Virus record (IMG/VR): IMGVR_UViG_3300035156_000215
Location: 1-21,034 of that record
From: a virus
Reading direction: 5' to 3' (one strand)
DNA length: 21,034 bases
Part shown: piece by piece, positions 6,958 through 12,958 of the stretch
Numbering within the stretch: the stretch's first letter is position 1
How the letters are laid out: the number at the start of each line of letters is the position of its first letter
Program-made: the position numbers and the translations under genes
The notes under the pieces: generated by a model
Seen by the model: the letters and a program-made list of their open reading frames with translations, nothing else
Databases searched by the model: none
What the model was told of the DNA's origin: nothing

Positions 6958-8471
6958 ACGCGCCTCACTACCCAAACGACAAATTCCCTACGCCGCGTCA
7001 GTTCCAAACGAGCGCACGGGAGAAGCTGCGCGCCGGATTCGCTGCTGGCCATCGATGCCAAATGGTGATGAGTCCGACTGGCTCCGGCAAGACGATTCTG
7101 GCGATGTTTCTGATTCGCGAATCGCTGGCGCGCGGGAAGCGGGCAATCTTTGTCGCGGATCGCCGGACCCTGATCAAGCAAACGTCCGATGTGGCCGACC
7201 AGGTCGGTCTTAACAAGCACTCTGTGCTGATGGCAGATCATTGGCGCTTCAACCCTGAACTACCGTTCCAGATCGCGAGCGCGCAGACTCTGGGCCGCCG
7301 AGACTGGCCCGATGCGGATCTGATCATCATCGATGAGGCACATACCCAGCTGGCCGCATGGACCGATCACATTCCGGATTGCCGGGCGGCCGTTATCGGC
7401 CTCAGCGCGACACCATTCAGCCCAGGCTTGGGCAACCTTTTCACCAATCTGATCAACGCTGCGACCATGCGCGAGCTGACGGAACAAGGTCACCTCGTGC
7501 CGATGCGGGTCATGTCCTGCACGAAGGTAGACATGAAGGGCGCGGCGACGGCTGGCGGCGAGTGGACCGACGCTGCAGCGCAAGAGCGCGGCATGGAGAT
7601 CGTCGGCGATGTGGTGCACGAGTGGATCAAGCATGGCGAGAACCGCAAGACTATCGTGTTCGGATCAACCATTGCGCACTGTGAAGGCCTTGTTCGCGAA
7701 TTCAACCAGGCGGGGATTATGGCGGCAGCTTTCACGTCGGAGACGACCGAAGCTGAGCGCAAAGAGATTACCGAAGACTTCAAATCGGCGGATTCGCTTA
7801 TTCGCGTGCTCGTATCGGTCGAGGCGCTGGCGAAAGGGTTCGATCAAAAGGACGTCAGCTGTGTATGTGACGTTCGTCCGCTGCGCAAGTCGCTGTCGAC
7901 CGCGATCCAAATGTGGGGCCGCGGCCTGCGCGCCTCGCCGGAAACCGGAAAGACCGACATGCTGTTGCTCGACTTCTCCGGAAACATCATTCGGTTCGCC
8001 GAAGACTTCGAGCGCATTTATGCCGAGGGCCTGGACGCGCTCGACATGGGTGAAAAGCTCGACAAGATGATTCGCAAGGATGCCGACGATGACGAGCCGG
8101 ATCATCCAGCGAACTGCCCCCAATGCCAATTCGTCCCATTCCGGAAGCGTTGCATGTCGTGCGGCTTCGAGATAATCAAACAGAACCTGATCGAGCACGA
8201 GGCCGGCCAGATGGTCGAGTTCAAGGTAGGAAAGGTCACTGTCGGAAACAAGCTGACCGTGTGGGAGCAGGTTGTCTCGCACTGCCGAAGCCAGGGGAAA
8301 CCCGAGACGGCAAAGGCTCGAGCAATGCACCTGTTCCGCAGCATTACTGGTCAAGAGCCCCGCGGGCTCCCGATGTTTGATTCCACTCCAACTGTTGCGG
8401 TATCGCGCGAGGTGGCCAACAAGGCCAAGTCCGAGATGCTCCGATTCGTCAAGGGCAAGGCAAAAGCATGA
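6954..8471 (+). CDS. SF2 DEAD/DEAH-box helicase with zinc ribbon
   Basis: This 505-residue ATP-dependent helicase carries Walker A SPTGSGKT (residues 40-47), Walker B IIIDEAH (124-130), motif III SATPF (151-155) and motif VI QMWGRGLRA (319-327). Four cysteines at 388, 391, 400 and 403 (CPQC...CMSC) form a likely zinc ribbon near the C-terminal third. It resembles UvrB/RecG-type restriction-helicase cores used by temperate phages in place of a DnaB-type helicase. It probably opens DNA at the phage origin or remodels replication intermediates. The start ATG at 6954 gives an ATGA overlap with the ParB-like gene; a longer frame from 6897 would lie deep inside that gene. The stop overlaps the primase start the same way. 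Confidence 0.92.
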   Translation: MNAPHYPNDKFPTPRQFQTSAREKLRAGFAAGHRCQMVMSPTGSGKTILAMFLIRESLARGKRAIFVADRRTLIKQTSDVADQVGLNKHSVLMADHWRFNPELPFQIASAQTLGRRDWPDADLIIIDEAHTQLAAWTDHIPDCRAAVIGLSATPFSPGLGNLFTNLINAATMRELTEQGHLVPMRVMSCTKVDMKGAATAGGEWTDAAAQERGMEIVGDVVHEWIKHGENRKTIVFGSTIAHCEGLVREFNQAGIMAAAFTSETTEAERKEITEDFKSADSLIRVLVSVEALAKGFDQKDVSCVCDVRPLRKSLSTAIQMWGRGLRASPETGKTDMLLLDFSGNIIRFAEDFERIYAEGLDALDMGEKLDKMIRKDADDDEPDHPANCPQCQFVPFRKRCMSCGFEIIKQNLIEHEAGQMVEFKVGKVTVGNKLTVWEQVVSHCRSQGKPETAKARAMHLFRSITGQEPRGLPMFDSTPTVAVSREVANKAKSEMLRFVKGKAKA

Positions 8472-9415
8472 CCATTCAGAAAGCAATCACAGCACTGTCT
8501 TTCGTCCCATCGCATGACCGCGAGACGTGGGTGCGCATGGGCATGGCGATCAAGTCCGAGTTCGGCGAGGACGGCTTCGACGCCTGGGACTCGTGGAGCC
8601 AGGGCGCCGATTCGTACAGCGAGAAGTCCGCACGCACCACCTGGCGCAGCATCAAGGCCGTGGGCAAGGTCGGTATCGGTACCCTGTACCACGAAGCAGC
8701 GGCCAACGGCTGGCGCGACAACGGCGAGCACCGCGGCCCATTGACAGAGCACGAGCTGGCCGAGCGCCGGCGCCACCAGGCAGCACGCGAGGCCGCAAAC
8801 GCAGCAGAGGAAAACCGCAAGCATCAGGCATACCGCGCGGCTGCCATCGAGGCGCAGAAGCTGATCGAACAGTGCGAACTCAAGACCCATTACTACCTGA
8901 ATGCGAAGGGCCTGCCGGACGTCGTCGCGCTCGTGAACGACATGACGCTCGTCGTCCCAATGCGCAGCCTGGAAACGAACCAGCTGCAGGGCGTGCAAAC
9001 GATCAACTGGATCGTGGAAGAGCGCCGCTGGGAAAAGAAGATGGCCACCGGGATGCGTGCCAAAGGCGCAGTCCTGAGGCTGGGCAGCCCGCGCGCGCTG
9101 GAAGTCTTCCTGTGCGAAGGCTACGCCACCGGCCTGTCGATCGAGCTGGCGCTGCGCCGCTTGCGCCTCAACGCGTCGGTGCTGGTGTGCTTCAGCGATT
9201 CCAACATGGTCTACGTGGCCGGCCAGGTGAAGACGCCGGCATTCGTCATCGCCGACAACGACAAGTCGCTGGCCGGCGAGCGCGCCGCCGTGAAAACCGG
9301 CCTGCCGTGGCGCATGAGCGACCAGCTGGGCGAAGACGCAAACGACCTGCACCAGCGGGCAGGCCTGGCCGCGCTTTGCAAACTCATCCTCGACGTTCGT
9401 CGACGCACCGCGTAA
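8468..9415 (+). CDS. Primase with PriCT-2 and Toprim domains
   Basis: This 315-residue protein starts with a PriCT-2-like domain (about residues 3-82, with SHDRETWVRMGMAIKSEFG and WRSIKAVGKVGIGTLYHEA). A charged linker follows (about 95-130), then a Toprim domain with E217 in LCEGYATG and the DxD pair D263/D265 in VIADNDK. The missing N-terminal zinc finger and full catalytic fold suggest a short phage primase that cooperates with the preceding helicase. It is joined to the helicase gene by an ATGA overlap and is the last gene of this block. An inverted-repeat-rich region begins 11 bases after its stop. Confidence 0.9.
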   Translation: MTIQKAITALSFVPSHDRETWVRMGMAIKSEFGEDGFDAWDSWSQGADSYSEKSARTTWRSIKAVGKVGIGTLYHEAAANGWRDNGEHRGPLTEHELAERRRHQAAREAANAAEENRKHQAYRAAAIEAQKLIEQCELKTHYYLNAKGLPDVVALVNDMTLVVPMRSLETNQLQGVQTINWIVEERRWEKKMATGMRAKGAVLRLGSPRALEVFLCEGYATGLSIELALRRLRLNASVLVCFSDSNMVYVAGQVKTPAFVIADNDKSLAGERAAVKTGLPWRMSDQLGEDANDLHQRAGLAALCKLILDVRRRTA

Positions 9416-9426
9416 GGCGGGCAGAC

Positions 9427-9888
9427 GCGCTCAAAACTGAGCGCATCTTGGAAAGGGGGGGGCGCATTCAACGACCTCCTTTCCAAGATTGAAAGGGTCG
9501 CGATTCGGAATCGACCCCACCAGGTGGAGCGGACGACACCTCAAAAAACGTGCAGGGGCCTGAATCGGCTCACACCGCAGAAAGACCGACAGCACCGTCG
9601 AACACCAGGGTACAGCAAGAACAAGGCGCAGAGGGGGCCTTGGCGAGGCCTGAGAGCACAGGCCGGACCGAACAGAGGTACAGAGTTGGAATGCTTGGCT
9701 CGTTTGGCAGGCGCATTCACAAGAGTGCGCCAATCGAAAGAGCGAGGGGGCGGCCTGGGCGAGCCGTAGCGGACATGACCACCCGCGAATACGTCACTTT
9801 CGATACCAGTTTTTGCTGATTTTGCTCAGGGGCCGCAGGACACCCCTTACAACCACTACCGCAGCCTGAGGGGTCCAACCAACCCCTC
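9427..9888 (+). ncRNA. Candidate structured RNA after the primase gene
   Basis: From 9416 to 9891 I see no convincing gene: open frames here have unlikely composition and no ribosome site. Inverted repeats are dense. GCGCTCA/TGAGCGC (9427-9433 with 9438-9444) closes a tetraloop. A 14-pair stem joins 9446-9459 with 9475-9488. GGGTC/GACCC (9495-9499 with 9513-9517) encloses GATT/AATC. CCACC-A-GGTGG lies near 9517-9527. GGCGCATTC/GAGTGCGCC (9710-9718 with 9723-9731) closes an ACAA loop. The loop of the 14-pair stem repeats GGCGCATTC (9461-9469), so it could pair with 9723-9731 instead and form a pseudoknot. The region could be a noncoding RNA, a long 5' leader of the following genes, or the phage origin. 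I saw no match to a known RNA class. Confidence 0.4.
9828..9888 (+). promoter_or_regulatory. Four-segment attenuator-like leader before the 9892 gene
   Basis: Four short complementary segments occur in order: AGGGG (9828-9832), ACCCCT (9842-9847), GAGGGGT (9868-9874) and ACCCCTC (9882-9888). Segments 1 and 2, or 2 and 3, or 3 and 4 can pair, the last as a perfect 7-base stem with a 7-base loop. The last stem ends four bases before ATG 9892, and the only Shine-Dalgarno-like sequence (GAGGGG) lies inside it. This layout could switch translation of the next gene on and off. There is no run of T, so a translational rather than transcriptional effect is more likely. Confidence 0.4.
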
Positions 9889-9891
9889 TAA

Positions 9892-10143
9892 ATGACAACT
9901 ATGGCCGAAACAAACGCAAACGAAAAACTAAAGCAATATGCAGAAAGTGCATACGAGCTGCCGCCGAGGATCGAGCAACGGCTCGCTGACCTGGTCCAGC
10001 TGGGGGAGTTCGACCAGGGCGACGTGGAGCACTGCCGCCGGGATTACTGGGGCGCGCGTGGCGACTGGCACACTATCCTGATCGACTGCTACCATCAAGC
10101 TCAGCAGCGAATGGCCCCGAGTCAAACCAACAAAAGGAATTGA
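9892..10143 (+). CDS. Small phage protein, unknown
   Basis: This 83-residue acidic, helical protein has the core ELPPRIEQRLADLVQLGEFDQGDVEHC and a WGARGDWHTILIDCY segment. The family is not recognised. ATG at 9892 or ATG at 9901 (MAETNANEKL) may be the start; neither has a free ribosome site, and the leader hairpin 9868-9888 lies immediately upstream. The stop is one base before the next start, so it belongs with the two following genes. Confidence 0.6.
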   Translation: MTTMAETNANEKLKQYAESAYELPPRIEQRLADLVQLGEFDQGDVEHCRRDYWGARGDWHTILIDCYHQAQQRMAPSQTNKRN

Positions 10144-12092: not shown

Positions 12093-12599
12093 TTATGCCG
12101 CAAGCGCGTACGAGTTGTCATGAGCTGCAGCAATCCTAACTGCATCTAATGATGGATCAAGATCTAGGCTGGCAAGCTCCTTCGGTCGAACCCGAATGAT
12201 CAGTTCATACCCAAGTGCGTCAAGTGCCTGAGCAAGAGTATCAATCTTTGTATTGTGATTCAGGTCAGTCAACCGAGTGACTTCCTGGGGCTTGACACCG
12301 AGTAGGCGTGCCAGGTCAGCCGGCCGGATACGTTCCTTCAGCAACCGATTGAGTAAAAGCACCTTCACAGATACGCTCGGAGGAAGGGCAATAAGACGCT
12401 CTCCCTCTTGAGCAGGCGAAGGTGGCGGCACTGGGCGCCGATCTTCGAAATAGAAGTCCATTGCTGTTCGAAGTGCATCGGCGGCCATCTCCAACGACTC
12501 GGCCTCGTCGTCGCCCTGAGTGATCGCTTCTGGAATATCGCGGAACGTAACAACGAACCCGCCTTCTTCGGCTGGAGTAAAAGTAGCTGGATATTTCAT
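12093..12599 (-). CDS. hicB: HicB-type antitoxin with C-terminal HTH
   Basis: This 168-residue protein begins with the HicB fold, a degraded RNase H-like domain: MKYPATFTPAEEGGFVVTF, then IPEAITQGDDEAESLEMAADAL. A helix-turn-helix follows (about residues 92-130, LARLLGVKPQEVTRLTD). HicB binds and silences HicA and, through the HTH, represses its own promoter. ATG at 12599 was chosen because GGAGGG lies seven bases upstream; the earlier in-frame ATG at 12611 sits inside that site. It is longer than the 110-140 residues common in the family, with an extra tail after residue 140. It follows hicA on the minus strand after 81 bases. Confidence 0.9.
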   Translation of the reverse strand: MKYPATFTPAEEGGFVVTFRDIPEAITQGDDEAESLEMAADALRTAMDFYFEDRRPVPPPSPAQEGERLIALPPSVSVKVLLLNRLLKERIRPADLARLLGVKPQEVTRLTDLNHNTKIDTLAQALDALGYELIIRVRPKELASLDLDPSLDAVRIAAAHDNSYALAA

Positions 12600-12657
12600 G
12601 TTGCCCTCCATGGCAGTTAAGTCAGTACTGAGTGATGCTGTAGTGCGGTGCTGTGCC

Positions 12658-12679
12658 GCAAGCCCCTTTCGGGGCCTGC
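12658..12679 (-). promoter_or_regulatory. Hairpin between hicA and hicB
   Basis: On the minus strand, GCAGGCCCC and GGGGCTTGC form a 9-pair stem with one G-T pair around a GAAA tetraloop, one base after the hicA stop codon. There is no T run, so it is not a standard terminator. It could protect the 3' end of a processed hicA message or set the HicA to HicB ratio. Confidence 0.55.
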
Positions 12680-12680
12680 C

Positions 12681-12857
12681 TCACTTGAGTTTTAGTTGTT
12701 TCTTTACCCCTTCGACTAACCCCGTTTTCAGTTCTTCGCTGGGGTGTCTCGGGACTTGGCTTCGTTCGCCGTTCAGGTAGACCTTCAAGTGTTTCGTGCC
12801 TTGCTTGAATGTTGCTCCCTGTTTGGCCAGCCACCTTACAAACTCACTCTGCTTCAC
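12681..12857 (-). CDS. hicA: HicA-type mRNA interferase toxin
   Basis: This 58-residue protein has the double-stranded-RNA-binding-like fold of HicA: SEFVRWLAKQGATFKQGTKH, then the beta strand LKVYLNG and the ending VPRHPSEELKTGLVEGVKKQL. H23 is the expected catalytic histidine. HicA cleaves mRNA and stops translation until HicB neutralises it. The start is GTG at 12857 with AAGGAG five bases upstream (12863-12868). A longer frame from an ATG at 12941 would run through the promoter and operator and has no ribosome site. Length and order (toxin first) are typical of hicAB. Confidence 0.9.
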   Translation of the reverse strand: MKQSEFVRWLAKQGATFKQGTKHLKVYLNGERSQVPRHPSEELKTGLVEGVKKQLKLK

Positions 12858-12886
12858 CGCACTCCTTTCGTCTTGTCGATGTAGAG

Positions 12887-12929
12887 ATAATAAACAAAAA
12901 TGCTTATGAATGCAAGCAATTTTGTTTAT
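12887..12929 (-). promoter_or_regulatory. hicAB promoter with 16-bp palindromic operator
   Basis: On the minus strand, a -10 box TATTAT (12892-12887) lies 17 bases from a weak -35 box TTGCAT (12915-12910). An inverted repeat of 16-base arms covers both boxes: ATAAACAAAAATGCTT at 12890-12905 and AAGCAATTTTGTTTAT at 12914-12929, with an 8-base spacer and one mismatch. HicB, which carries an HTH, is the obvious candidate to bind it and repress the operon. Confidence 0.8.
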
Positions 12930-12958
12930 ATTTTTCCCCATCGCTCTAACTGAGCTTT

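Follow-up and report, generated by a model that had tools for sequence, protein, structure and literature searches.

The window analysed here is the whole 21,034 bases of a phage record from IMG/VR (IMGVR_UViG_3300035156_000215). The left part encodes a tRNA-Gly, an integrase of the tyrosine type, a repressor of the S24 type, a helicase and a fragment of a primase; genes for an HNH protein, a terminase and a portal lie on the right. On the minus strand, at 12093-12941, a HicA toxin (PF07927, above the cut-off) adjoins a HicB-like antitoxin (PF15919, below the cut-off). The primase fragment (8468-9415, plus strand) contains PriCT_2 and Toprim domains (Pfam PF08707, PF13362) and is the conserved upstream neighbour of the RNA element described below. 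A preliminary description of this DNA had placed a structured RNA at 9446-9731. We found that a structured RNA does lie beside the primase, but its conserved part spans 9523-9891 on the plus strand (GGUGGAGCGG...CCCCUCUAA, approximately 370 nt), mostly further downstream, and the stem reported at 9446-9488 falls in a variable spacer upstream of this conserved part.

A conserved RNA element between primase and c3

With the primase as query, 25 phage loci were retrieved, and four close loci (including L027, reached via a downstream gene) have the sequence that follows the primase in common, at 75-84% nucleotide identity. IMG/VR was searched for three separate conserved segments as exact patterns, which matched 20, 23 and 26 stretches; pooled, and checked with R1, a covariance model built on 9606-9830, or by reading in the case of L053, they placed the RNA in 26 IMG/VR phage contigs. 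We aligned 25 distinct homologues. Over the element and the 12 nt downstream of it their identity to the window is 70-93%, the most divergent full copies being L059 and L062 (70-71%). Over 35 loci the gene order is helicase, primase, RNA, a small gene termed c3 and then variable genes, several contigs ending on one side so that only one neighbour is visible. The exceptions are L066 and L067, with another gene behind the RNA, the decayed L068, and L074, an RNA remnant with a different upstream gene and the sole case in which the RNA was not seen behind a phage primase or helicase gene. In L063/L074 (G364) the 3' half matches the family and the 5' half does not, as in a remnant or a recombinant.

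R1 recovers the RNA in phage contigs and in prophages of the Massilia type. At family level it matched 6 of 393 genomes and at genus level 4 of 17, and the 3' motif together with the RNA was present in two named species genomes, Massilia frigida and M. aquatica. A Massilia-type genome (G150) holds three prophage copies of the RNA (L069, L070 and L071), of which two have the same sequence throughout the element. Among 369 genomes drawn from across the class R1 matched none except the query genome itself; neither the RNA nor c3 was found among 50,697 records of isolated phages, and the RNA was not found in the plasmids searched.

The preliminary description had noted no credible gene in the region and an RNA of no known class, and both observations were borne out. 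A protein gene, sense or antisense, was rejected: its frames are not conserved among the homologues, the window differing from the other 24 by 47 single-base and 3 two-base indels, with open runs in different frames. Moreover, Rfam 15 gave no gathering-score match over 9523-9891, nor for the divergent members. The one weak match of note nearby, IMES-2 (RF02035; cmscan, 9381-9486, E 0.39), scored 14.4 bits where the cut-off is 54.7. It falls in the variable spacer and not in the conserved RNA, and was taken as a chance match. On comparative sequence evidence, 9523-9891 represents a structured RNA family new to phages, located on the presumed transcript of the replication operon.

Secondary structure, pseudoknot and the upstream spacer

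The region folds better than shuffled sequences, with a z score of -4.2 on the plus strand and -2.4 on the minus strand. The structure was derived with RNAalifold and by inspection on the alignment of the 25 distinct sequences (A5). Its nested part comprises 76 pairs with 97.7% of 1898 cells paired, a percentage that is favoured because the structure was chosen on the same sequences; the two-sided changes are therefore the stronger evidence. These were found in 22 pairs, whereas controls with one strand slid by 1-3 columns yielded 4-5 such pairs and 36-43% paired cells. Furthermore, G-U or U-G cells number 263 and A-C or C-A cells 36, and this excess points to the plus strand as the folded RNA.

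The same asymmetry bears on the idea, also raised in the preliminary description, that the region is a structured origin or replication RNA. An origin or a primer RNA serving the neighbouring primase and helicase would fit the position of the element in the replication module, beside these genes in nearly every locus. Nevertheless, the wobble excess marks selection on the RNA strand rather than on the DNA duplex, a repeat search showed no conspicuous iterons, and the RNA ends at a translation start, so that we regard a replication element as unlikely. The other part of that suggestion, a regulatory RNA, is probably correct.

The core is closed by a helix between 9608-9622 and 9809-9827, both strands being read from the same alignment and pair count, in which CAGCA/UGCUG is replaced by the compensatory AGACA/UGUCU in L059 and L062. 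Within it, a hairpin at 9624-9640 with the invariant loop segment GAGGGGG has two-sided changes in one pair (AU/GC/CG), and a second hairpin at 9642-9669, formed by GGCCUGAGAGCACAGGCC and two flanking pairs with the loop GAGCAC, has them in four pairs, including a G-C to C-G exchange of the 9643-9668 pair in 8 of the 25 sequences. The best-supported helix is the long hairpin at 9698-9743 (96.4% paired, two-sided changes in 9 of 18 pairs), whose tip, GGCGCAUUC/GAGUGCGCC, is the hairpin at 9710-9731 recognised earlier; its 9 pairs are kept in most of the 25 homologues, which marks it as more than a product of chance. It is followed by a hairpin at 9751-9766 (CGGC/GCCG, 96% paired, two-sided changes in one pair), which by eye reads AGGCC/GGCCU in L050 and AGGUG/CACCU in L062. 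At the 3' end, a terminal hairpin at 9868-9888 (GAGGGGU/ACCCCUC, 96% paired) exposes the loop UCCAACCA, which contains positions 9874-9879.

A scan of all column pairs returned one non-nested helix of at least 6 pairs that is formed by all sequences and yet varies, namely GUUGGA at 9685-9690 (plus strand) with UCCAAC at 9874-9879, complementary in 25 of 25 sequences. Both strands change jointly to GUUGAA/UUCAAC in exactly L002, L003, L059 and L062 (a control was run). This covariation amounts to one pair changed on both sides in four sequences, which look like two lineages. By complementarity and joint change, the terminal hairpin is tied to the core by this long-range pseudoknot. Hence a long-range pseudoknot exists as the preliminary description had proposed, but its partners are 9685-9690 and 9874-9879 and not 9723-9731 and 9461-9469. 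In addition, CCCCUCU at 9883-9889 is complementary to AGAGGGG at 9630-9636, a pairing that would rival the terminal hairpin pairing with GAGGGG at 9868; the CCCCUCU arm and AGAGGGG are invariant, or nearly so. The 5' arm of the terminal hairpin is weaker in L044, L050, L059 and L062 and the CCCCUC arm is fixed, which hints, at the level of sequence, at a second partner for this arm.

Between primase and RNA lie variable spacer hairpins (9423-9489, plus strand), among them the reported stem, which is present as 9445-9459/9475-9489 with 93% complementarity. Such hairpins occur in a subset of the phages, the stem being kept and the loops differing: the relatives' spacers fall into those that combine the ATCTTGGAAAGGG stem with other loops, those with different hairpins and those of only 10-14 nt, and roughly half of the relatives have no spacer hairpin. 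The ATCTTGGAAAGGG stem was seen only beside the RNA, and its reading as a dispersed repeat was rejected, since it occurred in this position alone and in one of six genomes searched.

According to the preliminary description, the arm at 9723-9731 would alternate between 9710-9718 and a copy of the latter in the spacer loop at 9461-9469. The letters are indeed there: GGCGCATTC is repeated, as part of a longer GGCGCATTCA at 9461-9470 and again at 9710-9719, and has the single complement GAGTGCGCC at 9723-9731, so that nine complementary bases in the window speak for the switch. A hairpin with a recurring arm is rare in shuffles (1 of 400), but a 10-base direct repeat is common enough (53 of 400), and a 9-base complement to the arm fell within the spacer in 5 of 200 shuffles of the window; as more than chance, the second copy in the spacer loop does not convince. 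However, the loop copy GGCGCATTC is absent from every relative's spacer and is private to the window, and with the exception of L040 the relatives' spacer complementarity to the arm is at chance level as measured by shuffles. Compensatory changes across 9461-9469, 9710-9718 and 9723-9731 had been proposed as support; the 3' arm does change (e.g. GAGTGCGTC in L034 and L036) and nothing compensates upstream. As a conserved mechanism this switch is refuted by the comparison of homologues; it could only be private to the phage of the window, and we consider such an alternation highly improbable.

The apparent translation start downstream of the RNA

The fold stops three bases before an AUG at 9892. 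The distance from the last hairpin to this codon is fixed at 3 nt (2 in L059 and L062) in all aligned copies, whereas that between RNA and primase ranges from 10 to 135. The AUG opens a conserved, translated-looking leader, MTTMAERN- (MTTMAETNA in the window, 9892-9918, plus strand), with synonymous differences among the homologues: ACA/ACG/ACC, GAG AGA/GAA CGA and GCC/GCT, the codon statistics having been taken by eye. It is either fused to c3 or overlaps the c3 start, and in L034, L040, L044, L045 and L064 it ends at a UGA overlapping that start; in L050 the leader also stops early. Translation from AUG 9892 is thus supported, because the MTTMAERN codons vary synonymously and the leader stop overlaps the c3 start. 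No ordinary Shine-Dalgarno site was found at the right distance from this AUG, and in many phages c3 could instead begin at an ATG or GTG further downstream that has a site of its own.

In the window the c3 frame covers 9892-10143 on the plus strand (83 aa, family unknown) and follows the RNA as its downstream partner in nearly all loci. The protein had no Pfam or PHROG match; in NCBIfam the protein of the window had no match either and the 21 members yielded a single weak one, and the predicted structure is of low confidence (pLDDT 69, pTM 0.45). All seven c3 copies in the 393 family-level genomes stand directly behind the RNA (six) or behind Betaproteobacteria-1 (one).

The RNA lies on the same strand as this translated-looking start, directly upstream of it and at fixed spacing. 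We favour a cis-acting leader that controls how the downstream gene is translated over a trans-acting RNA and, after it, a replication element, because the junction with the AUG is fixed and the last hairpin is pseudoknotted; from sequence evidence we give the leader function about an even chance. A promoter scan around the RNA found none. Against a cis-acting leader, the RNA persists without c3 in L066 and L067, which have another gene behind it, and in L068, a decayed locus; a simple leader would also be expected to be shorter than 370 nt. The lack of an ordinary Shine-Dalgarno site before AUG 9892 and the support of the pseudoknot by one covarying pair count against it as well.

Acting in cis, the RNA would set the translation of the MTTMAERN leader and c3. 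The terminal hairpin, when formed and docked, would hold the start codon against rigid RNA; its opening, perhaps with the CCCCUCU arm pairing with the AGAGGGG loop at 9630-9636, would alter ribosome access. The triggering signal could be a protein, a ligand, an antisense RNA or the replication state.

A pseudoknot between an upstream RNA and a start-proximal hairpin, here complementary in all 25 sequences, is the arrangement of repZ- and timP-like switches. In ColIb-P9 repZ/repA (IncI-complex and IncL/M plasmids), reportedly described by Asano and Mizobuchi in 1998, a long-range pseudoknot near the gene start, behind a translated leader peptide, is said to govern translation. The new RNA resembles it in its pseudoknot, its translated-looking short leader and the stop/start overlap of the L034 type. 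In contrast, c3 is not known as an initiator, the new RNA is far larger and has no known antisense RNA, and the sequences were compared via Rfam only. The competing partners of the CCCCUCU arm could also allow mutually exclusive conformations in the new RNA. The timP mRNA (PMC11228461) adopts such conformations, and one of them contains a pseudoknot without which translation does not initiate. Nevertheless, the product of timP is a toxin, with TimR as the antisense RNA paired with it, and neither was seen at the new RNA.

Exchange with Betaproteobacteria-1

Related phages without the new RNA carry RF02932, Betaproteobacteria-1, downstream of the primase (L006, L011-L016, L022). In L006, L012-L014 and L016 it is followed by c3, and in L011, L015 and L022 it simply lies downstream of the primase. 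RF02932 is an Rfam family of the type 'Gene; sRNA' and reportedly stems from a 2017 paper; the literature searched yielded nothing on it. It stands behind a phage primase also in L085, and in these loci the conservation extends approximately 90 nt past the Rfam model. Furthermore, in freshwater relatives (L017, L019, L021, L022 and L024) we observed another candidate RNA downstream of the primase (e.g. L022:3600-3790), with a promoter-like start, the motif CTGAGAGAAAAATCRGG in most of them and, ahead of a T-run, a G+C stem resembling a terminator. It had no Rfam match at gathering, and in L022 it directly precedes Betaproteobacteria-1.

From c3 onward L006 is 82-86% identical to L034, L045 and L069, with no such match before it, the break falling at the RNA/c3 junction. 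The sequences suggest that the two RNAs are interchangeable between primase and c3. They share this slot, a high G+C content, several hairpins and the absence of a protein; Betaproteobacteria-1 differs in having a 120-position model with three hairpins, whereas the new RNA of approximately 370 nt has a closed multibranch core and a pseudoknot. RF02932, which needs at least 49.4 bits, had no match in the window at gathering, nor in 9300-10000 at E values up to 10 (cmscan), and R1 run with filters off on the RF02932 locus L013 scored 1.9 bits at best. On these sequences a common origin is not supported, although very distant homology is conceivable.

Exchange at the junction also argues for a non-coding RNA similar to Betaproteobacteria-1 in kind that would be freed from the replication operon and act in trans, with c3 as a partner protein or a bystander. 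An annotated sRNA family occupies the same slot, the break in L006 separates RNA from c3, and the new RNA survives without c3. On the other hand, the fold reaches to 3 nt before a translated-looking, conserved AUG with its last hairpin pseudoknotted into the core, and the scan around the RNA revealed neither a promoter nor a terminator belonging to it. Moreover, RF02932 stands in most genomes in other, unrelated contexts, while the new RNA, the remnant L074 excepted, keeps to phage primase and helicase genes. A trans-acting RNA is hence a serious candidate to which we assign a lesser probability than to the cis-acting leader. More tentatively, and with some doubt, we propose that the new RNA and Betaproteobacteria-1 could be unrelated, interchangeable cassettes doing the same job between primase and c3, the new RNA being a pseudoknot-controlled translation switch tied to replication.

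The element adds an uncatalogued and strongly supported class of structured RNA with a covarying pseudoknot. Close phage relatives that have either of the two RNAs in the interval between primase and c3 provide a natural experiment on the orphan Betaproteobacteria-1, and if both RNAs do the same job, their comparison would make the function of both testable.
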